NCBI GenBank assembly: GCA_021157525.1
Contig: JAGGWK010000008.1
Span: 1 to 38,195 of the forward strand
Length of the DNA stretch: 38,195 nucleotides
Origin: Candidatus Cloacimonadota bacterium
GTDB lineage: Bacteria; Cloacimonadota; Cloacimonadia; Cloacimonadales; TCS61
Direction of reading: 5' to 3'
Under the pieces are notes generated by a model, which was not told where the DNA came from, did no database searches, and saw only the letters and a list, made by a program, of their open reading frames with translations. The first letter of the stretch is position 1. Every line of letters starts with the position of its first letter. Positions 2,565-33,543 of this stretch are shown here, one piece after another. Made by a program: the position numbers and the translations under genes.

Positions 2565-2677
2565 ATTTGGAGATAGTTGCTTGTAACAAGCAGCTCCACT
2601 CTCGGAGTGAAAGTAAAGCAAGAAGAGCGTGGCAGCTGCCAACCATTAGCAGCAACTTAACAGAATATGGAGGAGAT

Positions 2678-4120: not shown

Positions 4121-4128
4121 TGTCATAT

Positions 4129-4166
4129 GACCAATCCGAGAGCAATCTCGGGCTGGTCTTGTTTTT
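4129..4166 (+). terminator. Intrinsic terminator after the surface-protein genes
   Basis: GACCA (4129-4133) and CCGAGA (4136-4141) pair with TCTCGG (4146-4151) and TGGTC (4154-4158) around a GCAA tetraloop, with a two-base internal loop. TTGTTTTT follows directly. The position eight bases after the GLUG-protein stop fits an end of transcription on the + strand. Confidence 0.88.
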
Positions 4167-4229
4167 ATGAAATGATGCTTGTAACGAATTAAAAGTTTCC
4201 AGGCTTTCCCATACCAGTAAACTCTGTTA

Positions 4230-4267
4230 CTAAAGAAAACAGTCCCCGGCAGCAAAAGCTGCCGGGG
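4230..4267 (-). terminator. Intrinsic terminator of the mutAB operon
   Basis: CCCCGGCAGC (4244-4253) and GCTGCCGGGG (4258-4267) form a perfect 10-bp GC-rich stem around AAAA. On the - strand it is followed by a T-rich tract (TGTTTTCTTT). It lies 27 bases beyond the mutB stop codon. Confidence 0.78.
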
Positions 4268-4294
4268 GCATCCGATAGTGTCAGTATGGCAAAT

Positions 4295-6475: not shown

Positions 6476-8574
6476 AGTGTCACTCCTGCCTTTGCAGCGA
6501 TGCCCGTAAGGATAGTGAAGGCATTAGCGCGTACATGAATGTACTCATCCACGCCAGCTGCGGTAAATTCTGCGAGATGTGTTTTGGGGTAGCCAGCCAA
6601 TACAATCGTCATCTGCGGTTTTGCGGCTTTTATCCGTTGGCAGATGGTTGGAACCAACCGGGGATAGGTGGCATCCGTAGAGCAGATCACGGTAACGTCT
6701 GCACCGGATGCAAGTGCTGCATCTGCGGCTGCTTCTGCTGTGCCGTATCCGCCATTTTCTACCACAGAAAAACCTGCAACTTCAAAGAATTCACGGCTGA
6801 AATCGGCGCGGGCTTTGTACTGTAATACAGGGCCATTGTTTGCCAGGAAGACGGTTGGCCGTTTATCGGCAGCCTCCACAGCCCTGCGCAGCTTTTCAAA
6901 GATCTCACTTCGCCGCTTCTGTGGGACAGGCTCTATTCCGGTGACGGCCTCGGTTCCCCGCAGGGCTTCAACCATCTGTCCCAGAGTGGCGCCTGCTTCG
7001 CAGGCGGAAATTACGTCATCCATGCAAAGCTGAGCAAAGTCCAGGTTCAATGCATCATTGCGCACCACCATAGCTGCCCGTTGCTTCTGGATGGCATCAT
7101 AATCCCATTGCCGGGGCTCCAGAGGTTGCTCTGTCATATTAGCGTACATGTTTGTTCCCACTATCACATCCTTGCGAGTAGAGACGGCAGCAGTGCGTGC
7201 CTTGGCCACGGTTGCCACAGCTTTTTGGGCAGCGCCAGATTGCAGCATCTTCCAAAAGCCACCAGCATCCTGAGTAATCTGGAAGTTTTTCCACACCACG
7301 TCACAAAGTTTTGCCGTGAGGCTTTCTATGTACCAACTACCACCGGCAGGATCGATTACTGCATCCAAATGGGTTTCTTCCCGAAGGATGATCTGTTGGT
7401 TGCGAGCAATGCGCCGTGAAAATTCGTTTGGCACTCTGAACACTTCATCAAAGGCACCAACATGCATGCTGTCGGCACCGCCAACCACGCCACTAAAGGC
7501 TTCCGTGGTGGTGCGAAGCATGTTCACATAGGGGTCATAAATTGTTTTATTATAGGTTGATGTGCGCGCATGGATAAACATCTTCTGGGCATCTTCATTG
7601 CCGCCATAAGCCTGCACGATATGTTTCCACAGCATGCGGGCAGCGCGCAATTTTGCTATTTCCATAAAGAAATTGCTCCCCAGAGAAAGATCGAAACGTA
7701 TCCGTGAAGCGATAGTATTGATGTCCAAACCCCGTTCCAACAGTGCATCGATATAACAAACTGCGGTGCCAAAGGCAAAGGCCAATTCTTCTACAGCGCT
7801 GCCGCCACCATTGTGATATACGTGAGCATGCACGGCAATTGTACGAAGCTTGGGAGCATTTTCAGCCCCCCAGGCAGTAAGGGTGTACATCTCATCATAT
7901 GCCTGATTCAGGCTGCATCCCAGAGTACCCTCTTCTGCCAGAGTTCCCAGAGGATCTGCACCAATGGTTCCCGTCAGAGTTTCCAGCTTCAGTCCTTTTT
8001 TCCGGGCGGCAGCTGCCACCATGGCAGTATAGGGAAGCGCCAGATCATAGGCCTGAATGGTAACGTCGATGTATTCCTGCATGATGCCATCCAGCAGAGT
8101 TTGCATATCTTGAACTGTTGCCAGCGAAACACCGTCTTTCCCCACACTTCCCCGTGGCGCCATATCTGGGTCTAAGCCCATACGACTGGCTGCATCCAGC
8201 ACAATGTTTACGCCGGTTTGACCGCGATTGAGGTCGTGGAGCAACGTAGTATTGAGCATTGCCGGCGTTGGTTCGGTGATTTCCTGGGCCACTGTCCAGC
8301 CAGCCACACGAGCGCCCTCTGGTTTGGTACCCCGCACATAACTGCCACTACCCGGTAAATCTCTGATGTGGGCTAAACGTTCGCCATCTTCCCGACGATA
8401 CATCGGGTCAAGCGTAATACCTTCGTAGGTATGGGTTAACATGATTTTCTCGTAGGGTTTCCCCTTGAGAAGTTTGTCCACTGCTTCCCGCCATTCTGTG
8501 TACGTGTGAGGAGCAAATTCCGTCAGCAGCCGTTGATTTTCTTGCGGCCGCGTCCGGTTGGATTCCTGCGACAT
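6472..8574 (-). CDS. mutA: Methylmalonyl-CoA mutase small subunit
   Basis: This is the non-catalytic partner of MutB in the heterodimeric form of the enzyme, at 700 residues. The barrel domain is recognisable ([19 protein letters not shown] and [10 protein letters not shown] mirror the MutB barrel). The C-terminal flavodoxin-like domain (about 575-700) lacks the cobalamin-binding DxHxxG motif, as expected for the small subunit. The ATG follows GGAGGA. Upstream lies about 100 bases with only a weak promoter-like pair (TTGACG at 8645-8640, TTTGTA at 8622-8617, 17 bases apart). No cobalamin riboswitch is seen. Base composition is GC-richer than the surface-protein block. Confidence 0.95.
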
Positions 8575-8676
8575 GAAATGTCCTCCATCTCATTAATTTG
8601 GTTATTTTAACAAAGTTACAAAATTGAGCGCCACACAGCCGTCAAGCACAAACTCCGTGGTTTTCCCCTGTTACAT

Positions 8677-9411
8677 TTATTGGGATAATCTTCCGGAAAC
8701 GAGGATTATGGAAATGTCGTCATAAGAGCCGTTTTCCCTGGCAGTTTGATAGAGTTTTCGGGCACATTGTTTCAGACTGGTAGCCCGTTGCAGATGCTCG
8801 GCAATTTTCCCGTCGGTGGTTACATCAGAAAGGCCGTCGCTGCAAAGCAGGAGGATATCAGATTCATCCATATCTATTTCACTCATTTCCGGTTTCATGT
8901 CATAGTCCAGTCCAAGGGCTTTGGTCAACAGGCAGTTATCGGGATTGTTAACCAACTGGTCTTTGGTGAGTTCGCCATCCTTGTAGCGCGTCCACGCGAT
9001 GGTGTGATCTTCGGTGAGCTGTTTCATTTTGCCGTCGCGATAGAGATAAGCCCGGCTGTCTCCCAACTGCAATAGTCGTATTTTCTGGTTTTCAATACTG
9101 GCAACGAGGGCGGTGGTACTCATGCGATGCAAGCGGGGATGCTGCGCAGCATAGGTCAGGATGGAAAAATTGGCTTTGGTTATGGTAGCAAAAAGCTGTT
9201 CAGAAGTAATTTTATCGGGGCTATGAGCCAGATCATCCTGCAATACACGCAACGCCATAGCGCTGGCAACCTCTCCTCCCGGATACCCTCCAAGGCCATC
9301 AAATACAGCAAAAACCGGATCTTTCTGATGTGGTGGTGGCACCAGGATGCTGTCCTCGCATACGTGATCGGCAGAAAAGCTCTTGGATAATCCATACCAT
9401 CTGATATTCAT
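8677..9411 (-). CDS. PP2C-family Ser/Thr protein phosphatase
   Basis: This 244-residue stand-alone PP2C (PPM) catalytic domain removes phosphate from Ser/Thr residues using two Mn/Mg ions. Motifs seen in order are CEDS near residue 19, AVFDGLGGYPGGEVAS (about 34-50, metal-binding Asp and Gly pair), LLQLGDSRAYLYR, LLLCSDGLSD (about 199-208), and YDDISIILV near the end. It has no membrane segment and no regulatory domain, as in PrpC/Stp-type phosphatases that oppose Hanks kinases. No Ser/Thr kinase is adjacent. An AAGGAG site lies five bases before the ATG. It is followed by mutA with no obvious terminator, so read-through into mutAB is possible. Confidence 0.93.
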   Translation of the reverse strand: MNIRWYGLSKSFSADHVCEDSILVPPPHQKDPVFAVFDGLGGYPGGEVASAMALRVLQDDLAHSPDKITSEQLFATITKANFSILTYAAQHPRLHRMSTTALVASIENQKIRLLQLGDSRAYLYRDGKMKQLTEDHTIAWTRYKDGELTKDQLVNNPDNCLLTKALGLDYDMKPEMSEIDMDESDILLLCSDGLSDVTTDGKIAEHLQRATSLKQCARKLYQTARENGSYDDISIILVSGRLSQ

Positions 9412-9488
9412 AAGAACTCCTTGTCACAGAGATTGTGATGTGAAGATTTCCGGCAAGTTATTTCTCTATCCTGAAGGCATTGGCAGGC

Positions 9489-9519
9489 AAAACAGCCAAC
9501 GTGTTTCGCCGGCTGTTTT
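9489..9519 (-). terminator. Intrinsic terminator after clpX
   Basis: AAAACAGCC (9489-9497) pairs with GGCTGTTTT (9511-9519), and the stem can be extended by G-U pairs inside the loop. On the - strand the 3' arm ends in a T run. It lies 26 bases past the clpX stop. Confidence 0.75.
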
Positions 9520-9544
9520 GTTTATGTGTTTTTGCTCTTTGTAA

Positions 9545-10783
9545 TTATGCGCTTTGATCTTCGACTTTTTTGGTGTAGCTGAAAAACGGTTTTTCATCAC
9601 CGCCAACCACATCTTTAGAGATGAGGCAGGTTTTCACATTTTCCATCTCTGGTAGAGTGTACATGATGTCTAACATAAAACGTTCCATAATCGAGCGAAG
9701 CCCCCGGGCCCCGATTTTTTGTTTGATGGCTACTGATGCGATTTCCCGCAGAGCAGCTTCATCAAAATTCAATTCAACGTTTTCAATTTCAAAGAGCTTT
9801 TTGTATTGCTTCACGATGGCATTGCGAGGCTGGGTGAGAATCTCTACCAAGGCATCTTCATCCAGTTCATGCAGCGAAGTAGCTACAGGGAGACGTCCTA
9901 CCAGCTCGGGAATGAGGCCAAATTTTATCAGATCATCAGGAATAACCCTATCGAAAATATTGGCAGGTACATCATGGCGAGAAATGATATCTGCATCAAA
10001 GCCCACAGATTTTTTCTGCATGCGGTTTTGCACAATCTTTTCCAGTCCGAAGAATGAGCCTCCACCGATGAAGAGGATATTGCGGGTGTCGATCTCGATA
10101 AATTCCTGGTGCGGGTGTTTGCGCCCACCTTTGGGTGGCACGTTTACTTTTGCCCCTTCCAAAATCTTCAGCAATGCCTGTTGCACACCCTCACCCGAAA
10201 CGTCACGGGTGATGGACGGGGTCTCAGATTTGCGTCCGATTTTATCGATCTCGTCGATATAGATAATGCCTTTTTCTGCTTTTTCCACATCATAGTTGGC
10301 ATTTTGCAGCAACCGAACCAGGATGTTTTCCACATCCTCGCCCACGTAGCCAGCTTCGGTAAGGGTAGTAGCATCGGCTATGGCAAAGGGTACTTTGAGC
10401 AGATGAGCCAATGTTTGGGCAATGAGAGTCTTACCGGATCCCGTTGGTCCTATCATGAGGATATTGCTCTTTTCTATCTCTACATCGTCCTTGGGGCTTG
10501 TCTTGAAAATGCGCTTATAATGGTTATACACGGCAACTGAGATAACCTGTTTTGCCCTGTTTTGACCAATCACATATTGGTTCAGTTGCTCATGAATTTC
10601 CCGTGGTGTAGGCAATACAAAGTTATCCAGCTCTTCCCGCTGATAATCGGTCTCCAGGATGGTGGTGCACATTTTGATACACTCATCACAGATGTTTCCC
10701 GAAAGTCCTTTTATCAGATAGCGAGTCTCAGATTCCGGGCGTCCACAAAAAGAACACTCATGATCATGACGGTATTCACTCAC
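9545..10783 (-). CDS. clpX: ATP-dependent Clp protease ATP-binding subunit ClpX
   Basis: ClpX is the AAA+ unfoldase that feeds substrates to ClpP. The 412-residue protein has an N-terminal zinc-binding domain (Cys10, Cys13, Cys32, Cys35), Walker A GPTGSGKT at 112-119, Walker B with IIYIDEIDK, the pore and IGF-loop region, and the sensor-2 Arg in IGARGLRSI. The start is GTG at 10783, preceded by AAGGAG, and overlaps the last eight bases of clpP. Order and overlap with tig and clpP match the usual bacterial operon. A terminator follows. Confidence 0.98.
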
Positions 10784-20409: not shown

Positions 20410-20952
20410 TTATTCAGCCTGTTTGATAGCTGATACCGGACACCCCTTAAATAGCTTTCCATCGCCCTTTTCACAAATTCCGCAGTTGATGCATTTATCA
20501 GCATCAATCACGGCTACACCGTTTTGCATAGAAATGGCGCCAACAGGACAGTTTTTCACGCACAATCTGCAGCCGATGCACTTTGATGATTCCACCACAT
20601 AATAGTTCTTTTCAGCGGTAGCAACTTCCCACAGAGGCTTGCCATCATCATCCCGCATCACAAGGGTGCTTTCTCCAATAGTACATTCATATACCAGAAT
20701 CACGTCGTCATCGCCCAAAAGGCCTTTCACCACTATCGGCAGCTTCTTTTTCAAAACCAGCTGGTTTTCGGTAAAATACTCAGCAGGAGCAATATCCAGT
20801 TGCAAAAAATCCTCCCCGGTGCTCAAAAACCAGTTTCCACCGATAAACTTCAGAGTTCCGGAAAACTCTTGAAGCTCAGCTTTGGGTTGAGAATATACAA
20901 ACAAGATTCCCATCATCAGGATGGCCAGAAACATCACCATCTTTTTTTTCAT
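20410..20952 (-). CDS. Exported 2x[4Fe-4S] ferredoxin-domain protein
   Basis: The 180-residue protein has a signal peptide (MKKKMVMFLAILMMGILFVYSQ). The middle domain (about 25-110) is beta-rich and not recognised. The C-terminus carries two 4Fe-4S motifs: Cys125, 128, 131, 135 (CIGCRLCVKNCP) and Cys154, 157, 160, 171 (CINCGICEKGDG then GCP). The second has ten residues between its third and fourth Cys where three is usual. A bacterial-type ferredoxin with a Sec-type signal is odd, because clusters are normally built in the cytoplasm. The cluster domain may be exported unfolded, or the N-terminal segment may anchor it with the domain inside. A terminator follows. It is divergent from the NlpC/P60 gene and shares its upstream region. 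Confidence 0.85.
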   Translation of the reverse strand: MKKKMVMFLAILMMGILFVYSQPKAELQEFSGTLKFIGGNWFLSTGEDFLQLDIAPAEYFTENQLVLKKKLPIVVKGLLGDDDVILVYECTIGESTLVMRDDDGKPLWEVATAEKNYYVVESSKCIGCRLCVKNCPVGAISMQNGVAVIDADKCINCGICEKGDGKLFKGCPVSAIKQAE

Positions 20953-22494: not shown

Positions 22495-22500
22495 TTGACA
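22495..22500 (+). promoter_or_regulatory. Possible -35 element of the ECF/TonB operon
   Basis: A perfect TTGACA stands 185 bases before the first gene. The -10 region at about 22517-22523 (TTGTTTA) is a poor match to TATAAT. If used, transcription would begin near 22530, just before the hairpins of the leader. Confidence 0.35.
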
Positions 22501-22524
22501 AATAATTTCTACAAAATTGTTTAG

Positions 22525-22679
22525 CCCCATCGCTGAGCAGTGCTCTCTAAACCTCTGAAATCAGAGGCATGAGGATCTGCCAATGGGTAGCGCTGGAAAC
22601 GGCCCTGCCTTCCGTGTTTGAAAAGGCGAGAAGCTTCACTAAGTCGTTCTTGCCTTCAAAAAAATTTGGAGGTTTTTCT
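22525..22679 (+). promoter_or_regulatory. Structured 5' leader of the ECF/TonB operon
   Basis: About 150 non-coding bases hold several possible helices: GAGC/GCTC (22535-22538 with 22542-22545), CCTCTG/CAGAGG (22552-22557 with 22562-22567), CCCAT/ATGGG (22526-22530 with 22583-22587), and a 10-bp stem AAGGCGAGAA/TTCTTGCCTT (22623-22632 with 22647-22656, one G-U). CGCT (22531-22534) could also pair with AGCG (22589-22592), crossing the CCCAT pairing. The last hairpin sits just before the TTGGAGG ribosome site, where it could control translation. I do not recognise a known riboswitch class. Confidence 0.4.
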
Positions 22680-23477
22680 ATGAAACGTAGGTTACTCACT
22701 CTTCTCTTGGCTATGGTCTTGCTGTTTACCTTTGTGGCTTGCAGCGAAAATGACGACAACAACACCGACCCAAACGGCAATGACGCCGAACCACCGGCAT
22801 TGGCAACTGTTGCCGATCTAACTATCGCAATCCCAGACTCTGCATCTCTGGCAAATTACACCAGCGAAACCATCAGTTATGGAGGCGTAGATTACATCGC
22901 CTATAACCTTAATCAGTTCATCATGGATGCAATGAACGACACAACCGCTCTGGAATACAGCTTTGAGATCGTCTCGTCAGACGGATATTCTCCCCGCAAT
23001 GGTGGTAATCCTGACCTGGCATATGCCGATGTGGCTACCGGCTATCTGCTTCCTGCAAATAAGTATCGCACCTACTTTCCCAGTGATGACATTTTTACCG
23101 CATACAATGTAAAATATGCAGATCATTTCAATCTCTATTCCACCGTAACAGTAAAAGACGAAGATGGCGAAAGCATCCCCTTCGAGACCGGTGCCATCGA
23201 AACAGAAGAGGTATATCATCAGGCTGGCAATGGCAATTTCTACACCGATCCAGGATTCAAGCTCACGCAGTTCATCAGCGAATACGTAACCGAAGATGCT
23301 GAAGATTTCAGCTATTTCTTCACTGCATCCGATGGCTACACCATGACCTACACATGGGCGGAACTGCAAAGTGGCTGGTGGCTTCCCGACAACCATAAGG
23401 CGGTTTTCATAGATGAGAACGGCGTAGAGCTTTTGAGCAGCTTCAAGCATCTTATTTCTATCGAGCTGGTAGAGTAA
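22680..23477 (+). CDS. Lipoprotein with two SUOX-fold-like modules
   Basis: I start at ATG 22680 (after TTGGAGG), not at the upstream 22569 of the open frame. The 265-residue protein begins with a lipoprotein signal ending in lipobox FVAC (Cys21). Two halves look alike. Each has a helix (NQFIMDAM; TQFISEYV), then a strand with a Asp-Gly-Tyr turn (EIVSSDGYSP; FTASDGYTMTY), then a Leu-containing loop and a strand. This arrangement resembles the molybdopterin-binding/sulfite-oxidase (SUOX) fold. No molybdenum-binding Cys is visible in these modules, so a binding role is more likely than catalysis. It heads the ECF operon and may be the periplasmic substrate-binding lipoprotein. The fold call is by eye. 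Confidence 0.72.
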   Translation: MKRRLLTLLLAMVLLFTFVACSENDDNNTDPNGNDAEPPALATVADLTIAIPDSASLANYTSETISYGGVDYIAYNLNQFIMDAMNDTTALEYSFEIVSSDGYSPRNGGNPDLAYADVATGYLLPANKYRTYFPSDDIFTAYNVKYADHFNLYSTVTVKDEDGESIPFETGAIETEEVYHQAGNGNFYTDPGFKLTQFISEYVTEDAEDFSYFFTASDGYTMTYTWAELQSGWWLPDNHKAVFIDENGVELLSSFKHLISIELVE

Positions 23478-23484
23478 GACATCC

Positions 23485-24021
23485 ATGCGCTTTCTGCGGC
23501 GATTTTCTGCTCAGGATCTGCTCTATATTGCCATTTTGGCAGCCTTGGGGTTGGCAATCAAACCAATTGTCACCCCTCTTATTCATCTTATCTCAGCGCC
23601 TCTCATGATCCCCGGCGGGTCATTAGCCGGGGGATTTTATATGATGTGGCTGGTATTGGCAATTGCCCTGGTAAACAAGCCGGGAACCGCTATTTTAGTG
23701 GGCCTCACCCAGGCCATCGTGATGATTTCCCTGGGTTATTTTGGCAGCCATGGCGCCGTCTCCCTTATCAGCTACACCATGCCGGGCATTCTGGCCGAGT
23801 TTGCCGCCTTTTTTTTCCGGGATAAATCTACCCTTGCGGCTCACGTAGTATTGTGTACCGTAGCTAACTGCACCGGCGCTATCATCGTTACGGTATTGGT
23901 CATGCGCCTTGCTGCGATTCCTCTGATCATGTCTCTGGTAGCGGCGGTGATATCCGGCATTATCGGCGGCATTATGTCTCATTATGTGTTCAAACGTCTC
24001 AAAGCATATCGGGTAATTTAG
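23485..24021 (+). CDS. ECF transporter substrate-binding (S) component
   Basis: The 178-residue integral membrane protein has about five or six hydrophobic segments and a short basic start (MRFLRRFSAQDLLY). Features of ECF S components are the small size, the Ala/Gly-rich first helix (AILAALGLAI), the MIPGGSLAGGFYMMW loop and the NKPGTAILVGLTQ segment, which recalls the KPGAA segment of YkoE-like S components. The ATPases and T component in the same operon confirm the assignment. The substrate is unknown; I cannot place it in a characterised vitamin subfamily. It starts seven bases after the lipoprotein stop. Confidence 0.85.
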   Translation: MRFLRRFSAQDLLYIAILAALGLAIKPIVTPLIHLISAPLMIPGGSLAGGFYMMWLVLAIALVNKPGTAILVGLTQAIVMISLGYFGSHGAVSLISYTMPGILAEFAAFFFRDKSTLAAHVVLCTVANCTGAIIVTVLVMRLAAIPLIMSLVAAVISGIIGGIMSHYVFKRLKAYRVI

Positions 24022-24039
24022 TTTTTTTAAGGAGCATTT

Positions 24040-24951
24040 ATGCAACGCATTATTACCATTCTCGCCATTGTTTCATTTTTTCCCCTCGGTGCCATCATCA
24101 TTAACGACGGCGCAAACACCCACAATTTCAGTTATGATGACCTGCTTTCCTGGCAGCGGGGAGCCATAGAAACTCAGCGGGAGAAAAAAGGTGAAATGTG
24201 CAATGAAGTGTGGCGGGGACCCTACCTTCGGGAAATCCTGAAAACCTGCAATATCACCGACTACAACACCATCAAACTGGTGGCAGAAGACAACTATCTG
24301 GTGCGGCTCAGCGCTGAACAGATCACCGAAAACAATCCCATTATCGCTGTAGAGCGGGATGGAAACCTGCTGAAGCCGGAGAAAATCCGCCTTATCGTTC
24401 CGGGCATCCGAGATATGTTCTGGATTCAAAACATTGCCCGCATCCAGCTTGACCAAAGCACTCTTCCCACCATGCCAGCTACGGTTTACCGGGCGGAGTT
24501 GGCGCTGGCCCACACACCTCTTCGCACCTCGTTACCACCCTTTACCGATGCCCGGGGCTACTTTCTTAATGACCTCACCCTGGGAATTTTTCCAGCTCTT
24601 CAGGGTGATTTTGTGCTCATCGGCAAAGACGGCGTAAGCCACACTCTGGACTACGCAACCTATCTGCAACGTGCCGTTTTAGTAAAGGACGGCAACAGCT
24701 ACAACCTGAAAAGTCCGTCTATGCCCGCCGGTATGTGGATTAAAAATATCGCTTATATCCAATATTTCGACAGAGCTATCGTCTTTGATGCCGCCTTTTC
24801 GAATTGGAAAGAAGTGGCAACTCTGGCCGGATGGGACGCCATGAATGCTACCGTAGAAGCCCATAGTCCCACCAAAACCAAAACCCTTTCTGCCAGCATA
24901 CCGCTGAATGATGCCCAATGGACAGACGTCGAATTTATCTCGCTACCCTGA
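24040..24951 (+). CDS. Exported protein with two SUOX-fold-like modules
   Basis: This 303-residue protein has a signal peptide (about 1-20) and no lipobox. The first module (about 25-155) contains WRGPYLREILK, a strand/turn LVAEDNYLVRLSAEQI, and a closing segment LIVPGIRDMFWIQNIARIQL. This is the order seen in the oxidoreductase molybdopterin-binding domain (W-x-G-x-x-L, then D-x-Y, then P-G...W-hydrophobic-I). The second module (about 180-255) repeats the later part (LIGKDGVSHTLDYATYL, MPAGMWIKNIAYIQYFD). A Cys precedes the Trp (MCNEVW), but the spacing differs from YedY-like enzymes. It starts at AGGAG-spaced ATG between the S component and the next small exported gene. A binding or chaperone role in uptake is inferred. 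Confidence 0.75.
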   Translation: MQRIITILAIVSFFPLGAIIINDGANTHNFSYDDLLSWQRGAIETQREKKGEMCNEVWRGPYLREILKTCNITDYNTIKLVAEDNYLVRLSAEQITENNPIIAVERDGNLLKPEKIRLIVPGIRDMFWIQNIARIQLDQSTLPTMPATVYRAELALAHTPLRTSLPPFTDARGYFLNDLTLGIFPALQGDFVLIGKDGVSHTLDYATYLQRAVLVKDGNSYNLKSPSMPAGMWIKNIAYIQYFDRAIVFDAAFSNWKEVATLAGWDAMNATVEAHSPTKTKTLSASIPLNDAQWTDVEFISLP

Positions 24952-25550
24952 TATTGGCGGCAAGCCTGTGTCAGGCGGCGCCGTTGCCCCTGTGGGGCAA
25001 TCTGCCTGCCCCGTCACACATCGAGCACTCAGGGCGGTTAGATTCCCTCTTTGCGCAGCTGAATCTGGCACCGGATTATGTCATCGTTCTGGGGGCAGAC
25101 AGCACTGCATTTCAGGCAGGTTCGGCAGCATTTCCCCTGCTCTGGCTTGTTCAAGATTCTTTAGGGTGGCAATCCCGCGGGCCATTGCTTTCGCCGGTGT
25201 GCAACATCAAAAACATCCACTCCCTGATTCTGAATCTCCCCACATCACACTACCATCTGCTGATAGAAACCGCCGATGGATTTTCTACCAGAATAACACC
25301 CTATGCCGCCTTATTTGCAGAGTGTGATGTGCTGGGGATATCCAGTCGCAATGGCCACTCTGTGATGAAATGCAGACGGCGCCGCCAATTTCTTCCTCAG
25401 ATGAAAGAAGCAGATTATCTGATTACAACAAATCATGGGGCAGCCATAGTGCCCCGTGAAAAAATAGCTCATGCATTCACCCGGCAATCCTACTATTTTG
25501 CCATGGATGACGACACTCTTTTTGCCATACAGGAAATTCCTCAGAGGTAA
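24918..25550 (+). CDS. Small exported protein, SUOX-like remnant
   Basis: The 210-residue protein starts inside the previous gene (34-base overlap) with a clean signal peptide (MDRRRIYLATLILAASLCQA). Its centre reads like one more degenerate SUOX-type module: VIVLGADSTAFQAGSAAFPL, then a Gly-Pro-Leu segment (SRGPLLSPVCNIKNIHSLIL), then LIETADGFSTRITPYAAL. A Cys-containing basic stretch (MKCRRRRQF) follows at about residue 151. No known catalytic site is present. The overlap shows it belongs to the same operon. The family is not recognised with certainty. Confidence 0.68.
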   Translation: MDRRRIYLATLILAASLCQAAPLPLWGNLPAPSHIEHSGRLDSLFAQLNLAPDYVIVLGADSTAFQAGSAAFPLLWLVQDSLGWQSRGPLLSPVCNIKNIHSLILNLPTSHYHLLIETADGFSTRITPYAALFAECDVLGISSRNGHSVMKCRRRRQFLPQMKEADYLITTNHGAAIVPREKIAHAFTRQSYYFAMDDDTLFAIQEIPQR

Positions 25551-25551
25551 C

Positions 25552-25986
25552 ATGAAACCCATTAGTATCATTCTCCTTTCATTGATCGCCATTTTGCTGG
25601 CTCTGGTGTGGTATCAGCACGGTACTGCTCCAGAACAGCAGTATGATTTCACCATTATCACTCCCCGGCGAACCAGTGGTTTGCAATTCGATGCTATTGC
25701 AAATTTACCCCGAAACATCGTTCAGACCAACAGGGGCGACACGTTGGAGGTCTTTTCCATGGATGTGGTTTTTTCTGCTGCATCGCAGGATATGGCATCC
25801 TATACAACCTTCCGTTTTGCTTCGGAAGATGGTGGAAGTCTGAGCTTGTTACAGTCCGAGATGGAATCCGCCTATTTGCTTCTGAGTGAAAAAGATGGAA
25901 AGCCCTATCTCCGTTTGATTTTACCTGATGATGAGTTTCCCCAGCGTTGGATAAAATACATCACATCCATCACTGCTGAAAAATGA
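25552..25986 (+). CDS. Small membrane-anchored SUOX-like protein
   Basis: I use ATG 25552, two bases after the preceding TAA and after AGAGG; the longer frame from 25471 overlaps the previous gene without a good ribosome site. The 144-residue protein has an N-terminal membrane anchor (ISIILLSLIAILLALVW). The rest is a single module: RFASEDGGSLSLLQSEMESAYL, then KPYLRLILPDD and RWIKYITSI. The last two elements are close to the ending of the molybdopterin-binding SUOX fold (LR-x-x-x-P-x...RW-x-K-x-I). The Mo-ligand Cys is absent. The stop overlaps the EcfA start in ATGA. It could hold substrate at the inner membrane next to the S component (inference). Confidence 0.72.
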   Translation: MKPISIILLSLIAILLALVWYQHGTAPEQQYDFTIITPRRTSGLQFDAIANLPRNIVQTNRGDTLEVFSMDVVFSAASQDMASYTTFRFASEDGGSLSLLQSEMESAYLLLSEKDGKPYLRLILPDDEFPQRWIKYITSITAEK

Positions 25987-26636
25987 TATCACTTCACACC
26001 ATCTCATTCCGCTATCAGCCAACTACACCATGGATTTTCAAGGATCTTTCGGCCAACTATCAACCAGGCTCCATAATCGGTATTCAGGGGGCCAGCGGCA
26101 GCGGCAAAACCACTCTGCTCTATGCTCTTTGCGGCGTAATACCTGCTATGATTAAGGGAGATTTTACCGGTGAAGTAAAGATAAACAATGAAATTTTGAC
26201 AAACCTTACACTGCCGCAAATAGCACCTCTGGCATCCCTGTTGATGCAGCAGCCGGACTATCAACTTTTCTTTCCCACGGTAGAGCAGGAAATCGCCTTT
26301 GGCCCGGAAAATCTCTGTTTAGCACCTGCGGAAATCCAGGCGCGAGTGGACTCTGCTCTTGTGCGTCTGAGTATAGAAGAACTGCGCCACACTACATCGG
26401 CTCATCTCTCCTTTGGCCAAAAACGCCTGGTTACCTTGGCAGCGCTGCTGGCCCTCTCACCACAGGTGATGTTACTGGATGAGCCTCTGGGAGGCATCCA
26501 TCCCGGCCTCTACCCACTTCTGGCAAAAGCCATCACCCAGGAAGCCCAAAAAGGTAAAATCATCTTTGTTGCAGACCACCATCCGGCCTTACTGGAACTG
26601 GCAGATGTGCGTCTGCAGATGGAGGATTTACGATGA
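25983..26636 (+). CDS. ecfA1: ECF transporter ATPase (EcfA)
   Basis: The 217-residue ABC ATPase has Walker A GASGSGKTT (about 37-45), a Q-loop in LLMQQPDYQLFFPTVEQEI followed by AFGPENL, which is characteristic of ECF-type ATPases, the signature LSFGQKR, Walker B VMLLDEP, and a switch His in ADHH. The signature lacks the usual LSGGQ spelling but keeps the function-critical Ser-x-Gly-Gln. Start and stop overlap its neighbours by four bases each (ATGA). Compared with full-length EcfA proteins (about 270-280 residues) the C-terminal domain is missing, as in some dedicated ECF systems. The number in the symbol is only for distinction. Confidence 0.92.
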   Translation: MISLHTISFRYQPTTPWIFKDLSANYQPGSIIGIQGASGSGKTTLLYALCGVIPAMIKGDFTGEVKINNEILTNLTLPQIAPLASLLMQQPDYQLFFPTVEQEIAFGPENLCLAPAEIQARVDSALVRLSIEELRHTTSAHLSFGQKRLVTLAALLALSPQVMLLDEPLGGIHPGLYPLLAKAITQEAQKGKIIFVADHHPALLELADVRLQMEDLR

Positions 26637-27289
26637 GCAGTCACTACCTGCATCTGGTAAATATGGGATTTTCCTATGGCTCAAACAGGATTTTCACCAA
26701 CGTATCCCTCTCGGTGCCCCGAGACGCCGTCACCGTGCTTACCGGCAAAAATGGCTCTGGGAAAACCACTCTTTGCCGCATTCTCAGCGGATTGCAACCA
26801 CATTACGCCGGCAGCATCATCATCGATGGCAACGAGCTGAAAGATATCTCGCCCCAAATCCGCGCCAGGCAAATAGCCTACCACAAGCAAGAGCCCGAAG
26901 GCAACATCGTGGGGGCCACTGCCCAGGAAGATCTGGCAATGTGGCAACATCAGTTTTGTGGCTATGGACAAAATGACGACGCCATCGCCGCTGCCGCCAG
27001 AGAATTTGGTATCGAGAAATTGTTGCACACACCCACCTGGGAACTGAGCAACGGCCAGCGAAAACGCATCGGGCTGGCGGCCATGCTACTGCATCCTCAG
27101 CGCTACTGGCTGCTGGATGAGCCCACCACCGGCCTGGATACCATTAACCAGCAAGCTTTACTGCGGGCAATCGGCTCTCTTTCCGCCGCTGGTTCAGGAT
27201 GCATGATCATCACCCATGACCCCGAATGCTTTGCCCGGTTGGCAGACATCCGGCTCCATATTTTAGATAACAAAATCAAAACACTATGA
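26633..27289 (+). CDS. ecfA2: ECF transporter ATPase (EcfA')
   Basis: This 218-residue ABC ATPase is the partner of the preceding one. It has Walker A GKNGSGKTT (about 38-46), a Q-loop region QIAYHKQEPEGNIVGATAQE, signature LSNGQRKR, Walker B YWLLDEPTTGLD and switch His in ITHD. The two ATPases differ enough to form a heterodimer, as in group I ECF modules. It also lacks the C-terminal extension. It begins within the stop codon of the first ATPase and is followed after seven bases by the TonB-dependent receptor gene. Confidence 0.92.
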   Translation: MSSHYLHLVNMGFSYGSNRIFTNVSLSVPRDAVTVLTGKNGSGKTTLCRILSGLQPHYAGSIIIDGNELKDISPQIRARQIAYHKQEPEGNIVGATAQEDLAMWQHQFCGYGQNDDAIAAAAREFGIEKLLHTPTWELSNGQRKRIGLAAMLLHPQRYWLLDEPTTGLDTINQQALLRAIGSLSAAGSGCMIITHDPECFARLADIRLHILDNKIKTL

Positions 27290-27296
27290 GGGAACT

Positions 27297-29195
27297 ATGA
27301 AAAAAATACTTCTCATCTGCATCTGTCTGACCTGCATCATAGCCCTTGGGGCGCAAACAGCCGACACTCTTTCCACCGCAAAAAAACGCACCTACCAGCT
27401 GGAAGGCATTCGGGTGGTAGCCCAGCGGGAAACCCAGACCATCGGCTCCATTGCAGTGAAAGAATTTGATGCCGCATCCGCTGCTACAGACCTCAATGTA
27501 GCCCAAAGCATTGCCGATGTAAATGGTCTGGACATCATCACCGGTGGAAAATCCGGAAGCACGCTGAGCATCCGTGGCTTTGAAAATGATCAGATAAAGT
27601 TCTTCCTGGATGGACGCCCTCTGGGAGGCGGCTACTTTGGAAACGTGGACCTCAATACCATCCCGGTAAGCGAGATAAAAAATATCCAAATCCTCAAAGG
27701 TCCCATTTCGGCACTCTACGGCTCCGACACCATGGGAGGCGTGGTAAACATCGTTTCCCGCAGTGTGCAAGACCAGCCCCTCATCAAAGCAGGAAGCCAG
27801 TTTCGCCGTAATAACACCAACAAACAATATCTCTCGCTGGCAAAAGCCTTCCCTCTCTTTGATGTATCACTTTACGGATCCCGCTACCACACAGACGGCT
27901 TTGTGCTGTCCCGGGATTTTGCACCCACCTCTTTTGAAAACGGCGACATCCGCAACAACACAGCCCGCAACCAGTACGACATGCAGGCCAAAGTAAATGC
28001 CACCATCTTCGACTTCCATTCCATCGCCATTCAGGCAGGATACACCACCATGGATACCAAAGAAATCCCCGGCAACATTTATGAAAACCAGCTGCGAAAA
28101 TTCATCGACTGGAAACGGTATCAACTCTCTGGGAGCGGCGCATTTCAGCTCAACGACTTCCTCTCCTCCGACCTCACCATATACTATGATGGCTACGACA
28201 ACACCTACGCCGAGTACAATACAACTACCGGCGAGATGTATTCCACCTGGCCTTCTTATCTGGAAAGCTGGAAACTTGGGCTACGTAATAATTTCACCTG
28301 GCAACTGTCCAGCGCCTGGCAAACCCGGTTTGGCGGACGCTACGAAAAAGAGGCCTACAACCGCAAAGACAACGGCAATTACAAAAAATGGACAACCAAC
28401 GATCAGCAAATCATCAATATCTTCAATCAGCACGAGATTGATCTCCAGCCCCTTACCATCACGGTGGGAAGCGGGATGTCCTTTTTCTTGCCCAAAGGCG
28501 CGGATGCATGGGAAATGCACGTTGAACCATCGGCCAGCCTGCAGTACCGCTTTATTAACCGCTCCAGCGCAACCCTGTCTGCATCCAGAAATACCAAATA
28601 TCCGGTGATGCATGAGCTCTTTAGCGCCAGTTCGGGAAATCCTGACCTCAAGCCTGAACTGGCCACCAAAACCGAATTTACTCTGCAGTGGCCTCTTCAC
28701 TTTGCATTCCTGCAGGGAAATCTGAAGCAAGCTGTGTATTATAACTGGATAAAAAACCTTATCGACAAAGAAGATAACATCTATAAGAACATTGAAAATG
28801 CCGATACCTATGGCTACGAATGCTCATTAAACCTGCATTTGTGGTGGGATCATCAGTGGGAATATTCCCTGGTACGCTATGGTGCCAACAGCCATTATGC
28901 GGTTTTGGAAACCCCGCGACACGCTGTGAAAATCAAGGAATCGATGCTTCTGCCTTACGGGATACGGGTGAAATACAAGGCATCCTGGAAAGATGTGCGC
29001 TATTACGAAGACGGCCCAACTCACGTTACTCTGGCCCCCTATTGGCTCCATAACCTCTACCTCAGCAAATCCTTCGGAGCTGTTTCGGCTAAGCTGGGGG
29101 TGGAAAATATTTTGGATACCAATTACATGGAAAAATACGGTCAACCGGGCCCCGGTATAGATTTTTTAATTAACCTGGAATATCGGTATAAATAG
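27297..29195 (+). CDS. TonB-dependent outer-membrane receptor
   Basis: The 632-residue protein brings a scarce nutrient across the outer membrane using TonB energy. Signal peptide 1-20 is followed by a plug domain (about 40-150: STLSIRGFENDQIKFFLDGRP, ILKGPISALYGSDTMGGVVNIVS) with the usual plug motifs, then a 22-strand-type barrel. It ends in the C-terminal strand LINLEYRYK. The overall size fits BtuB-like receptors rather than the larger SusC type. A TonB box is not obvious; QLEGIRVVA near residue 32 may serve. It lies between the ATPase and T-component genes of the ECF system. This is strong contextual evidence that both membranes are served by one operon. Confidence 0.95.
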   Translation: MKKILLICICLTCIIALGAQTADTLSTAKKRTYQLEGIRVVAQRETQTIGSIAVKEFDAASAATDLNVAQSIADVNGLDIITGGKSGSTLSIRGFENDQIKFFLDGRPLGGGYFGNVDLNTIPVSEIKNIQILKGPISALYGSDTMGGVVNIVSRSVQDQPLIKAGSQFRRNNTNKQYLSLAKAFPLFDVSLYGSRYHTDGFVLSRDFAPTSFENGDIRNNTARNQYDMQAKVNATIFDFHSIAIQAGYTTMDTKEIPGNIYENQLRKFIDWKRYQLSGSGAFQLNDFLSSDLTIYYDGYDNTYAEYNTTTGEMYSTWPSYLESWKLGLRNNFTWQLSSAWQTRFGGRYEKEAYNRKDNGNYKKWTTNDQQIINIFNQHEIDLQPLTITVGSGMSFFLPKGADAWEMHVEPSASLQYRFINRSSATLSASRNTKYPVMHELFSASSGNPDLKPELATKTEFTLQWPLHFAFLQGNLKQAVYYNWIKNLIDKEDNIYKNIENADTYGYECSLNLHLWWDHQWEYSLVRYGANSHYAVLETPRHAVKIKESMLLPYGIRVKYKASWKDVRYYEDGPTHVTLAPYWLHNLYLSKSFGAVSAKLGVENILDTNYMEKYGQPGPGIDFLINLEYRYK

Positions 29196-29918
29196 ATGAA
29201 ACTCAATGTGCGCACCCTGCTGATTCTGGTTATCGGCATCACCACGATCTCGGTAGTGTATCAAACTATTTTGGCACAGCTTGGATGCATCGGCATCACG
29301 CTGCTACTGCTTTTTGCCCTGCACCCCACGCCTCAGCAGCAGAAGCGCATTCTACATCGCCTCACTTCGCTGGGACGCATCATTTTCACGGTGATGGTAT
29401 TTCAGATTCTTTTTCGTCGGGATGGAGCGGTCTTGTGGCAATGGCACAGCATCGTTATCACCGACATCGGAATTCAGTATGGTGTGGCGTCTTCATTACG
29501 TTTTTTCCTCATTATTCTGGTAGCGGGAATGCTTTTTGATATCCCCTATTACCGCTATCTGCAGGCATTTCATGCGTGGAAGTTACCCAACGAGATTTCC
29601 TTCCTGGCTGCCACCACCATTCACTTTATCCCTATTTTTCGCGGGCAGTTTATGCAAAGTATTGAGGCCCTTACCGTCCGTGGCATCGCCCTCAGGGAAT
29701 TGCCATTGCGGAAGCGTCCAAAGGTGTATACGTCGTTACTGTTCCCTGTGCTTGCCAAGGCCATCTCCGATGTGAAATACCGGGCTATGTCTCTGGAATT
29801 GCGTGGATTTCGTCTGTATCCCACCCGCACGCTCCTGCACAAAGCACCACTCACACCCTTGGATATCGCATTACAGATTATCACCGTCGTTACCGTGGTC
29901 ACCATTTTGGTGGCCTAG
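29196..29918 (+). CDS. ecfT: ECF transporter transmembrane (T) component
   Basis: The 240-residue membrane protein has about five hydrophobic helices and starts on the base after the receptor's stop codon. The cytoplasmic coupling helices carry two x-Arg-Gly motifs, EALTVRGI and LELRGF, equivalent to the Ala-Arg-Gly pair that docks the two ATPases. It joins the S component to EcfA/EcfA'. With it the operon contains every part of an ECF transporter. No clear own terminator follows; the bidirectional-looking hairpin at 30088-30114 may serve. Confidence 0.9.
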   Translation: MKLNVRTLLILVIGITTISVVYQTILAQLGCIGITLLLLFALHPTPQQQKRILHRLTSLGRIIFTVMVFQILFRRDGAVLWQWHSIVITDIGIQYGVASSLRFFLIILVAGMLFDIPYYRYLQAFHAWKLPNEISFLAATTIHFIPIFRGQFMQSIEALTVRGIALRELPLRKRPKVYTSLLFPVLAKAISDVKYRAMSLELRGFRLYPTRTLLHKAPLTPLDIALQIITVVTVVTILVA

Positions 29919-30123: not shown

Positions 30124-30840
30124 TCACAATGCGCTTTGTATTTGCTTTTGTACAATTCCCGCGAGATTCTCCAGAGTCTCTTTATCGCACTGGCGTACAT
30201 CTATGGGCGGATGCACCGTAAGGTAAACGTCGGCTTTTTTGATGTGCCCCGTTTCCTCATAGAGTTTGTAAGAGCCACTAATCGTGAGGGGGATTATCAT
30301 CGCCTCCGATTTAATCGCCAGCTTCAGGCTGCCTTTTTTAAAATCTGCCATCTGATTACTACGGCTGCGGGTACCTTCCGGGAAGATGCACAACGGCTTG
30401 CCATTTTTTATCTGTTTTATGCCTTCGATAATGGTTCGGCGGGCTTGACGAGGATTTTTCCTGTCTATCAGGATGCATCCCAACTCCTTCATCCAGCGGT
30501 GCACAATGGGAATCTTGCGCAATTCCTGCTTGGCAATGAAGCCGATATTGGGAGGCAGAAAGCCCAGCACTACCGGGATATCAAACATACTTTGATGATT
30601 TGAGATAAAGCACAACCGGTCACTGTCAGGGATGTTTTCCAGTCCCGAGACATGCATCCTTGCACCGGCAACTTTGAGCACAGTGCGACCCCAGCGGCTG
30701 GTGGTTCTTATCACATATCTATCCAGTGTCTTTTGGGATGCAAACAGTTTGAGCACAGCCAGAGGAATATACTCCAACAGAATGGTGAAGAGCGACAACA
30801 CCACAAAAACACCGTAGCTAATGGTCCAGATAATTTTCAT
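30124..30840 (-). CDS. plsC: 1-acyl-sn-glycerol-3-phosphate acyltransferase
   Basis: This enzyme adds the second acyl chain to form phosphatidic acid at the inner membrane. I use ATG 30840, which overlaps the stop of the upstream kinase gene in ATGA; the frame start at 30897 lies inside that gene. The 238-residue protein has one or two N-terminal hydrophobic helices, the acyltransferase box NHQSMFD (His and Asp catalytic), the glycerol-phosphate-binding box FPEGTRSR, and PLTISGSYKL. Being coupled to a phosphoglycerate-kinase-like gene is unusual but has no clear functional meaning. A terminator follows. Confidence 0.93.
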   Translation of the reverse strand: MKIIWTISYGVFVVLSLFTILLEYIPLAVLKLFASQKTLDRYVIRTTSRWGRTVLKVAGARMHVSGLENIPDSDRLCFISNHQSMFDIPVVLGFLPPNIGFIAKQELRKIPIVHRWMKELGCILIDRKNPRQARRTIIEGIKQIKNGKPLCIFPEGTRSRSNQMADFKKGSLKLAIKSEAMIIPLTISGSYKLYEETGHIKKADVYLTVHPPIDVRQCDKETLENLAGIVQKQIQSAL

Positions 30841-32135
30841 CGCAGCAACCCCGGTTGCTCGATGAGGGCCCGCACCGGAGCCAACCCTGTTACGCAACCT
30901 TCGTGAATCGCCTTGAGGATGGTTCCGCCACCAGAGAAGAAATAATATTGGGGATCATCCACTGCCTTGATGTAGGTGCCTGGCAATAGAGTACGAAGCT
31001 CTTGCAACGTGTCTCCGCCACCAAACATCTTGTTGGCTTCCGTGTTTTGATTGATCAGTAGATACATGGTTTTGGTTCCTTCAAAAAAGCGTGGTGTAAA
31101 ACCCATCACAGCATTCACAAAAATACTTTTCGCCTTCATTATGGGATCTTTGACAAAGGACTCTTTAAAGGAGTGCGGCGCCACATCCAGGATGTAATTC
31201 AGTTTGGTTCCCGGCTGCAATGTGCGTACATCCAGCTCACGGAATTTTCCCGGGACTTTGCCCTCCCGAGTTTCGGATTCTATAACATAGGGTGGCTCAA
31301 TTACCTTTCCGGGGTATTGTTTGCTGACTTCCAGAAATTCCCGTGCCACAGCCAGGTCGTCTTCCTGTATACCTTTGATCTCGACCCCGTATTTGGCGCA
31401 GAGGTAGGCATTATAAATCACTCCACCCATCATCAGGTAGTCCACGGTTTCCAGTAATGAACGCAAGGGACCGATTTTGGTATCAAATTTAGCACCGGCA
31501 ACTATCGCCAAAAAGGGACGAACCGGATGATAAATACGGTCGAGATTATGTATCTCATGTTGCATCAGGTAACCAGCATAGGATGGCAGATAGCGAGTGG
31601 GAGCGATGGTAGACGTGTGGGGTTGCCAGGAGCCGAAGGCGTCGTTTACATAGACGTCTGCCAGACCAGCCAGCTGCTCGCCAAACTTTGCGCCCTCCAT
31701 GCCTTTCTCTTCTTCTCCTCGAAACCAGCGGATATTGGGCAGGTAAATCCCCTGAATCTTCCCTTTTCGCAGTTCTTTTATCATCAGGTTCACTCCGGTA
31801 TCGATGCCCATATAGCCACCATGGACTTTGTCTTCCTTAAAATCCGGTACTTCAAATTTGGTAAACAGCTTGCGTTCCAGATACTTAACAATAGGCTTAA
31901 CATCATACTTGGGATCCATGTCTATCAATCCGGTCTTCTTATCCCGCGGACGCCCCACATGGGTCATCAAGATCAGTTTTCCGCCCTTTGACAAGATGTT
32001 AAACAGTGTCCCAAAGGTCATATCAATACGAAATGGGTCTTTGATCACATGCTCTTTTGCCACATTGTGATCCACTCGAACCAGTACGATTTTGTCACGC
32101 AGATCGGCATCTTGCAACTTCGGAATTTCGCGCAT
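30837..32135 (-). CDS. Divergent phosphoglycerate kinase, copy 1
   Basis: The 432-residue protein (start ATG 32135 after GGGAG) has the two-lobed PGK layout. Conserved are VRVDHNV (Asp and Asn of the substrate site), a DPFRID arginine, THVGRP, NIRWF, VNDAFG, AGAKFDTKI, GGGDT and SGGGT. Changes are RVDFN to RVDHN, the HRAHAS loop to SWQPHTS (the 3-phosphoglycerate-binding Arg and one residue are lost), WNGPMGVFE to VNAVMGFTP, and GLDIGPET to LDVAPHS. It may still be the glycolytic enzyme of this lineage or may have another acyl-phosphate substrate. Its start lies 115 T-rich bases from a second copy. Confidence 0.85.
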   Translation of the reverse strand: MREIPKLQDADLRDKIVLVRVDHNVAKEHVIKDPFRIDMTFGTLFNILSKGGKLILMTHVGRPRDKKTGLIDMDPKYDVKPIVKYLERKLFTKFEVPDFKEDKVHGGYMGIDTGVNLMIKELRKGKIQGIYLPNIRWFRGEEEKGMEGAKFGEQLAGLADVYVNDAFGSWQPHTSTIAPTRYLPSYAGYLMQHEIHNLDRIYHPVRPFLAIVAGAKFDTKIGPLRSLLETVDYLMMGGVIYNAYLCAKYGVEIKGIQEDDLAVAREFLEVSKQYPGKVIEPPYVIESETREGKVPGKFRELDVRTLQPGTKLNYILDVAPHSFKESFVKDPIMKAKSIFVNAVMGFTPRFFEGTKTMYLLINQNTEANKMFGGGDTLQELRTLLPGTYIKAVDDPQYYFFSGGGTILKAIHEGCVTGLAPVRALIEQPGLLR

Positions 32136-32250
32136 ACACACTCCCGTATGAAATCAACTATCTTTTTGGATTACCTGTTCTTTTTCTGCTTTTTTGGGCA
32201 ACCATTTTTTTCCTTTTTTTTGGATGCAGCCCTTTCTGCCGCGACACTTT

Positions 32251-33543
32251 TTACCCGTTATCTTTTTCACAAAGAGCAGTTATTGGCACCAATCCCAACG
32301 GTGATCCAGTCTCGATAGCTTTGAGCACAGCACCACCACCGGTAAATATGTAATATTTGGGGTGATCCAGCGCCATGATATAGAGCCCCGGTAACAGTCG
32401 CTTGAGCTCCTGCAACGTATCGCCGCCACCATACAGTTTAACCGCATCCCGGTTTGCATCAATGAGCTGATCCAACGCAATTGTACCGCTGTTGAAGTGC
32501 GGCGTAAAACCCATCACCGCATTGACGAAGATGGTGCGGGCGCGTCCGAAAATCTGCTGTACCTGAGGTTCGTCAAAGGATGCCGGGTCGATATCCAGCA
32601 CATATCCCAATTCATCGCCACGGTGCAGTTTCCGGATGTCATGGGTTCGGTGCTGACCATCAATGCGGCCCGCCAGAGTATCCGACTCCACGATAAGCGG
32701 CAGCTCGACGAGTTTGCCGGGGTACTTCTGAGCATAGGTAACAAAGCGGGATGCAGCCACCATATCCTTTTCAGAGATTCCTTTGATGGTGATGCCGTAT
32801 TTGGCGCAGAGGTAGGCGTTGTAAATCACACCTCCCAGGATGAGGTAATCGCTCCGCTTGAGCAGAGCAAAGAGAGAATCGATCTTGGTATCAAACTTCG
32901 AGCCGGCTACTACCGTTACGAAAGGACACTCGGCTTGATACACCCGTTGCAGATTCTGGATTTCCTGCTGCATCAAAAACCCGGCATAGGATGGCAGGTA
33001 GTGAGTGATGCCCACGGTGGAAGCGTGAGGCTGCCACGAGCCAAAGGCGTCATTTACAAAGATGTCTGCCAGCCCGGCCAATTGATGGGCAAAGCGATCG
33101 GCTGCATCTCCCCCGGCTTCTTCCCCGAAAAACCAGCGGGTATTGGGCAGATAAATGCCGTCAATGGTGCCAGCCTGAAGGTCTTTGATCATGTGATTGA
33201 TGGAGGTTTCTACTCCCAGATAGCCACGGGTATCCTGAGGCAAAAAGTCTGGCACCTGCATCCTGATGTGCAACTTGTGCTGCAAATAGTCCACAATAGG
33301 CCGCACCGAAGTATCGGGCGAGATGGTGATTTCACCGGTTTTTTTATTTTTTGGTCGTCCTACATGGGTCATCAGAATGATCTTCCCGCCCTTGGCATTG
33401 ATGTAGTAAAGGGTGCCAAGAGTGGCATCAATGCGATATGGATCGTGGATAATGCCCTGTTTTACAACATTGTGATCTACCCGTACCAGCACTATTTTCC
33501 CGGCCAGATCGGCGTCTTGCAATCGTGGAAGTGTTTCAAGCAT
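32251..33543 (-). CDS. Divergent phosphoglycerate kinase, copy 2
   Basis: This 430-residue paralogue of the next gene downstream has the same unusual motif set: VRVDHNV, DPYRID, THVGRP, NTRWFFGEE, VNDAFGSWQPHAS, AGSKFDTKI, VNAVMGFTP, GGGDT, TGGGA. Since both copies share the loss of the HRAHAS Arg and the changed nucleotide-side motifs, the changes predate the duplication. The ATG follows GGGGGAGG. In canonical PGK the reaction is 1,3-bisphosphoglycerate plus ADP to 3-phosphoglycerate plus ATP. Which copy, if either, does this is not decidable here. It lies 124 bases downstream of the gcvT-like gene. Confidence 0.85.
   Translation of the reverse strand: MLETLPRLQDADLAGKIVLVRVDHNVVKQGIIHDPYRIDATLGTLYYINAKGGKIILMTHVGRPKNKKTGEITISPDTSVRPIVDYLQHKLHIRMQVPDFLPQDTRGYLGVETSINHMIKDLQAGTIDGIYLPNTRWFFGEEAGGDAADRFAHQLAGLADIFVNDAFGSWQPHASTVGITHYLPSYAGFLMQQEIQNLQRVYQAECPFVTVVAGSKFDTKIDSLFALLKRSDYLILGGVIYNAYLCAKYGITIKGISEKDMVAASRFVTYAQKYPGKLVELPLIVESDTLAGRIDGQHRTHDIRKLHRGDELGYVLDIDPASFDEPQVQQIFGRARTIFVNAVMGFTPHFNSGTIALDQLIDANRDAVKLYGGGDTLQELKRLLPGLYIMALDHPKYYIFTGGGAVLKAIETGSPLGLVPITALCEKDNG

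Follow-up and report, generated by a model that had tools for sequence, protein, structure and literature searches.

A riboswitch-headed operon for an ECF transporter and a TonB receptor

We analysed a stretch of 38,195 nucleotides (the window; contig JAGGWK010000008.1, or C43) from a Candidatus Cloacimonadota bacterium whose genome measures 2.2 Mb and is 98.5% complete (the host, G000). Its plus strand carries an operon that starts with a riboswitch of the molybdenum cofactor/tungsten cofactor (Moco/Tuco) class and encodes an energy-coupling factor (ECF) transporter, a TonB-dependent receptor and four exported proteins (Table 1). Nine reading frames, all open, fill positions 22680–29918 in the order lipoprotein, S component, a protein resembling sulfite oxidase (SUOX), P4, P5, EcfA (A), EcfA' (A'), TonB receptor and T component, with intergenic gaps of 7, 18, -34, 1, -4, -4, 7 and 0 bases. 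Domain searches (Pfam/NCBIfam) confirmed S, two ECF-type ATPases, the TonB plug, T and one PF00174 protein. An earlier note on this DNA had placed S, EcfA, EcfA', the receptor and T on one strand and described the last four junctions as ATGA, ATGA, 7 bases and direct abutment, in agreement with the frames, domain matches and gaps measured here. While its gene reading of the interval 22495–29918 stands, it overlooked the riboswitch lying inside that interval.

This RNA, a member of RF01055, scores 63.9 bits against a gathering threshold of 36, and its end lies 35 bases upstream of the start codon of the first gene. Its P3 columns are deleted, as they are in all ten relatives' copies displayed. 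RNAs lacking P3 go almost exclusively with Tuco metabolism (Regulski et al. 2008, PMC2408646), the exceptions in that study including two P3-lacking RNAs of Syntrophomonas wolfei that precede genes described as 'putative sulphite oxidase'. A promoter and terminator scan, uninformative as a whole, matched a terminator-like hairpin at 22652–22673, next to the aptamer, the number of such matches in the region being not above that in shuffled sequence.

Conservation of the operon among relatives

How widely is this arrangement kept? Our sample comprised 40 genomes from the host's own family and order, the host among them. Of these, 24 carry RF01055 and 22 an S component; one further match to S is weak. 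In 18 of the 22 S-positive genomes, the S gene lies downstream of RF01055, on the same strand and within about 2 kb (in one, G022, the RNA scores just under the cut-off), when chance, at 1–3 copies per genome of 1–4 Mb, predicts well under one case. Most relatives keep the order lipoprotein-S-SUOX-P4-P5-A-A'-(TonB)-T; its recurrence in about 20 of them is far above chance, and in an S-component tree the window protein falls among Candidatus Cloacimonadota proteins. The earlier note had itself proposed to look for recurrence of the gene set beside S: the set is conserved, and S does not fall in a family whose substrate is known and unrelated.

In some relatives the operon is split. RF01055 then heads lipoprotein plus TonB receptor (G028, G032, G036, G039), TonB receptor plus T (G025) or a lone lipoprotein (G029). 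With riboswitches of their own, receptor and lipoprotein are tied to the same cofactor even where they do not adjoin the rest of the operon. That receptor and ECF transporter are partners, as the earlier note had thought, is borne out: they are conserved together and, when apart, receptor and lipoprotein stand behind the same riboswitch class. The argument then given, a receptor gene lying between the ATPase and T genes, is true here and in only part of the relatives. Further RF01055 copies directly precede genes for aldehyde:ferredoxin oxidoreductase (AOR) in seven relatives. As a side observation, two families of the order have RF01055 directly ahead of a P5C-dehydrogenase-like aldehyde dehydrogenase of the NAD type (PF00171; Table 1), perhaps a cofactor-independent stand-in for AOR.

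The transporter and its receptor

The predicted model of the S component (pLDDT 90) finds as its best PDB fold the thiamin S component YkoE (5edl; TM 0.76, Foldseek E 0.025), followed by RibU and ThiT. A profile of S gave no match among PDB sequences, such that the relation is seen by fold search only. In YkoE, thiamin is bound by Glu77, Gln95, Asp131 and Tyr46. We propose that the modelled S component is the Moco/Tuco-binding subunit. The T component is the single match to its family in the whole host genome, and since a single operon holds S, T and ATPase genes of its own, the transporter is of the group I type. The receptor combines a plug domain with a barrel, resembles TIGR01779 over its full length (well below that model's cut-off), and has CirA and BtuB as PDB relatives.

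Exported proteins with a SUOX/PruR-like fold

PruR is a periplasmic protein of SUOX fold that is devoid of the molybdenum-ligating cysteine and binds pterins (PMC13259868). It is also the best PDB fold for the predicted model of the lipoprotein (pLDDT 90.8; 7kom, probability 1.00, E 0.017), evidence at fold level only; by profile, its likeness to SUOX is weakly supported (57.6%). The profile of the SUOX-like protein encoded at 24040–24951 matches sulfite dehydrogenase, with three PruR structures as weak further matches. P5 matches this protein in profile-profile comparison (98.9%, E 2e-17) and gives chance matches only against the PDB, while a Clostridial P5 homologue comes just under the PF00174 cut-off (E 8e-5) and against the PDB shows a weak sulfite dehydrogenase match only. 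P4 was tried as a further SUOX-like protein and rejected, its profile-profile match reaching just 3.4%; it is also without a Pfam match.

Hence, of the four exported proteins that the earlier note had called SUOX-like, the 24040–24951 protein is upheld by Pfam, P5 by profile and the lipoprotein by predicted fold and a weak profile match; P4 drops out. No cysteine is conserved in the alignment of the 24040–24951 protein (A2, 27 sequences) or in A3, and in that of the lipoprotein (A4) only the lipobox cysteine is. The cysteine ligand to molybdenum that characterizes the sulfite oxidase family is thus missing from A2. Judged by sequence and predicted models, the lipoprotein, the 24040–24951 protein and P5 would share SUOX ancestry, none keeping the metal-ligating cysteine. 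The suggestion that such proteins stand in for a periplasmic binding protein is borne out by fold and homology only, and we follow it because their best structural match is the pterin-binding PruR. With this, the earlier guess would gain a specific meaning: they may act as pterin carriers, a role we propose for the 24040–24951 protein, while the lipoprotein, we suggest, would assist the TonB receptor at the outer membrane.

Cofactor-dependent enzymes without a recognised pathway

The host encodes a full-length AOR of the tungsten type and a formate dehydrogenase (FDH; G000:C53, L158, about 3969–8366) beside a formate/nitrite transporter and a MobA-like gene. The single in-frame TGA of the latter enzyme's gene is probably read as selenocysteine. 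There is no MoeA or MoaC candidate and no MoaA match in this genome, in a search that left out MoaD, MoaE and MogA. The MoaA test used PF06463 alone and is insensitive, two cofactor makers (G002 and G030) scoring below its cut-off; the pathway argument therefore rests on MoaC and MoeA. Among the 40 genomes, MoeA occurs in G002 and G030 only, and MoaC in the same two, with a partial match in G015 (61% complete). Both makers, the relatives with MoeA and complete MoaC, are without S. Through a second sampling route, which overlaps the first and includes one genome labelled Armatimonadetes, MoaC was absent from 28/28 S-positive genomes of the lineage. (In the genome so labelled, L115, JABMPU010000011.1, operon and S group with Cloacimonadota; it is probably a mislabelled assembly.) AOR or FDH is present in 21/22 S-positive versus 12/18 S-negative genomes (Fisher p 0.03, kinship not corrected). 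The host itself has the make-up of an auxotroph, with molybdenum or tungsten enzymes present and MoaC and MoeA absent, and finished cofactor would be the simplest need of S-positive Cloacimonadota.

The operon outside Cloacimonadota

A scan of GTDB genomes for S also returned Clostridia and two loci of other bacteria. There, the operon often runs on after T into MobB (PF03205), in several cases followed by an APH-like kinase; MobB directly after T is likewise seen in two Cloacimonadota (L105, L112). RF01055 heads 7/19 operon loci outside the lineage. Three of the outside S-positive genomes are without MoaC: RF01055 precedes the operon in 3/3, and AOR is present in 1/3. At a Syntrophomonadaceae locus (L127), exported proteins weakly similar to SUOX lie between RF01055 and the same ECF operon.

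Two side observations belong here. The riboswitch-headed operon of L127 also contains an ApbE (flavin transferase) gene (8778–9758). Small APH/kinase-like proteins are encoded right behind MobB (L127 13787–14446, L135 9702–10427, L146 11553–12137), and none was seen beside the Cloacimonadota operons. They are candidate Moco/Tuco kinases and may point to import of a dephosphorylated form followed by rephosphorylation.

A proposed salvage importer and its alternatives

What, then, could this operon carry? With a probability of roughly two in three, we take it to encode a salvage importer for ready-made tungsten or molybdenum pterin cofactor, that is, Tuco, Moco or a close derivative such as the dephosphorylated form. 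From computed features (riboswitch, gene set, conservation, pathway absence, user enzymes, folds and homologies) we infer the substrate and each transfer step. Lipoprotein and TonB receptor would capture the cofactor outside and carry it across the outer membrane; the exported SUOX/PruR-fold proteins, free of a molybdenum ligand, may hold the cofactor by its pterin part and pass it along; and the dedicated group I ECF transporter (S, T, A, A') would move it into the cytoplasm. There, MobA/MobB could finish the cofactor for formate dehydrogenase, with AOR taking the bis-pterin form. Cofactor in sufficient supply would lower operon expression through the riboswitch, a direction of control that we infer. 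The earlier note had left the substrate undecided among tetrapyrroles, corrinoids, metal complexes and thiamin-like compounds; we replace these with the pterin cofactor, to which the riboswitch, the linkage to MobB and the lack of a Moco pathway point.

Several observations weigh against this proposal. Similarity to PruR is confined to the fold or weak in sequence (E 0.0085–0.06). The cofactor is generally held to be too labile to pass from cell to cell, and free Moco is considered unstable (PMC9793310). The missing pathway is judged by MoaA, MoaC and MoeA. In four relatives of good genome quality (G004, G013, G023, G027), AOR is present while S and MoeA are both missing, and G017 has S with no AOR, FDH or riboswitch found. 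Outside the lineage, 14/17 S-positive genomes possess MoaC; salvage is therefore not needed for survival there.

Import of the metal only, as tungstate, molybdate or a metallophore complex under the riboswitch control known for TupABC/ModABC, is the first alternative, and one we consider unlikely. In its favour, RF01055 heads TupABC-MoeA-MoaA-MoaC in G002, in G030 it precedes a Mod/Wtp-like transporter, and chelated metals are frequent cargo of TonB receptors. Moreover, no clearly S-positive relative has a strong match to ModA/WtpA, TupA is clear in G002 only among the 40 genomes, and the host has no clear ModA, WtpA or TupA, so something else may supply the metal. (The ModA test, PF13531, is noisy; only matches below about 1e-25 were counted, namely in G027, G030 and G034.) However, because S-positive cells of the lineage are without MoaC and MoeA, neither the metal nor a metal-free precursor is of obvious help to them, and the S fold is of a vitamin rather than a metal type, in an operon that encodes pterin-binding-like proteins. 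Slightly less likely again is import of a pathway intermediate, cyclic pyranopterin monophosphate (cPMP) or metal-free molybdopterin, completed by an unrecognised metal-insertion step. The same riboswitch logic and the MobA/MobB linkage would fit, and cPMP is more stable and serves as a supplement in human deficiency (PMC9793310), yet the host offers no MoeA candidate and no clear importer of molybdenum or tungsten, within a search lacking MoaD/MoaE/MogA.

A transporter of thiamin, corrinoid or another vitamin, its riboswitch link being incidental, is improbable: while the nearest folds are YkoE for S and CirA/BtuB for the receptor, S genes of different families and phyla repeatedly stand behind Moco/Tuco riboswitches, and several phyla have MobB after T. 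We rejected thiamin and corrinoid as substrates on the riboswitch type and the MobB linkage; a covariance-model scan found no thiamin pyrophosphate riboswitch in the window. Least probable of all, the SUOX-like genes might encode exported molybdenum or tungsten enzymes that the transporter serves or has nothing to do with, as PF00174 similarity and the sulphite oxidase reading of the S. wolfei genes behind P3-lacking RNAs (PMC2408646) would allow, against which stand the lack of a conserved metal-ligating cysteine in 27 sequences and a lipoprotein fold nearest to PruR, a non-enzymatic binder.

Table 1. Positions of the operon features in the window and of two riboswitch-headed loci in relatives.
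Feature	Position	Strand	Evidence
Moco/Tuco riboswitch aptamer RF01055, P3 stem absent (Tuco-like)	22519–22644	+	cmscan 63.9 bits, E 2.9e-13
Possible expression platform (tentative)	22652–22679	+	hairpin, 3' side over GGAGG ribosome-binding site of first gene
Lipoprotein, 265 aa, lipobox Cys21, PruR/SUOX-like fold	22680–23477	+	predicted model, fold search, alignment A4
ECF S component, 178 aa, YkoE-like	23485–24021	+	PF09819 E 7e-15; predicted model; fold search
Exported SUOX-like protein, 303 aa	24040–24951	+	PF00174 E 4e-8; profile matches
P4, exported, 210 aa, fold without assignment	24918–25550	+	conserved operon position
P5, membrane-anchored SUOX-like, 144 aa	25552–25986	+	profile-profile match to 24040–24951 protein
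EcfA ATPase	25983–26636	+	ABC_tran and ECF_ATPase models
EcfA' ATPase	26633–27289	+	ABC_tran and cbiO/ECF models
TonB-dependent outer-membrane receptor, 632 aa, BtuB-like	27297–29195	+	Plug PF07715 E 2e-20
ECF T component, CbiQ family	29196–29918	+	PF02361 E 5e-15
L162 (G016:C167), RF01055	1010–1136		
L162 (G016:C167), aldehyde dehydrogenase gene	1211–2842		
L163 (G039:C23), aldehyde dehydrogenase gene	7540–9264	-	
L163 (G039:C23), RF01055	9242–9360	-	

Elsewhere in the window, on the minus strand, two diverged phosphoglycerate-kinase-like genes lie in tandem (30837–33543), and a protein that looks exported is encoded at 20410–20952, its C-terminal half being ferredoxin-like (2[4Fe-4S]).

Implications and comparison with known systems

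The prevailing view holds that cells needing Moco make their own, Caenorhabditis elegans being a noted exception whose route is unknown (PMC9793310). We found no published account of a system like the present one in the open-access literature, subscription journals and preprints being outside the search. On balance, it would probably be the first system in bacteria dedicated to taking up a metal-pterin cofactor intact, with many Cloacimonadota dependent on the Tuco or Moco of other cells. If true, this would explain why AOR and formate dehydrogenase are kept in many Cloacimonadota without a recognisable pathway, and some microbes would have Moco/Tuco as a vitamin; with the importer also present in Clostridia, it would become, like vitamin B12, a public nutrient that anoxic communities share. 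It may also account for the S. wolfei 'sulphite oxidase' genes, the exception of 2008 (PMC2408646). The operon provides a genetic handle on whether Moco/Tuco moves between cells, and its proteins might stabilise the cofactor outside enzymes.

The proposed importer can be set beside several known systems. The thiamin transporter YkoEDC of Bacillus subtilis (PMC5037267), another group I ECF system, likewise groups its S, T and ATPase genes into a single operon that a cofactor riboswitch controls, with an S component of similar fold; there, however, the RNA is a THI box rather than RF01055, and only the present operon encodes its ATPases separately, together with further exported proteins and a receptor for the outer membrane. 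With PruR of the PruR-DcpA system (PMC13259868) the exported proteins share the SUOX fold and the absent molybdenum-ligating cysteine, whereas PruR has a single domain and partners DcpA in signalling, and the proteins described here are multi-domain or anchored, in a transporter operon rather than PruR's two-gene operon, with no DcpA/DTB regulator gene found in it by domain searches. RF01055-controlled TupABC/ModABC and moa operons (PMC2408646) have the same riboswitch family, of the P3-lacking type, but take up metal or make the cofactor, in contrast to an operon that holds neither a metal transporter nor a biosynthesis gene. C. elegans also uses finished Moco made by another organism, taken from its food (PMC9793310), albeit as an animal, by an unknown mechanism and with no dedicated transporter identified in that work. 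Cobalamin uptake by BtuB-BtuCDF likewise couples a TonB receptor to an ATP-driven inner-membrane importer for a large metal cofactor under riboswitch control; in the Cloacimonadota operon, an ECF transporter takes the place of BtuCD, SUOX-like proteins that of BtuF, and a different riboswitch stands at the head.

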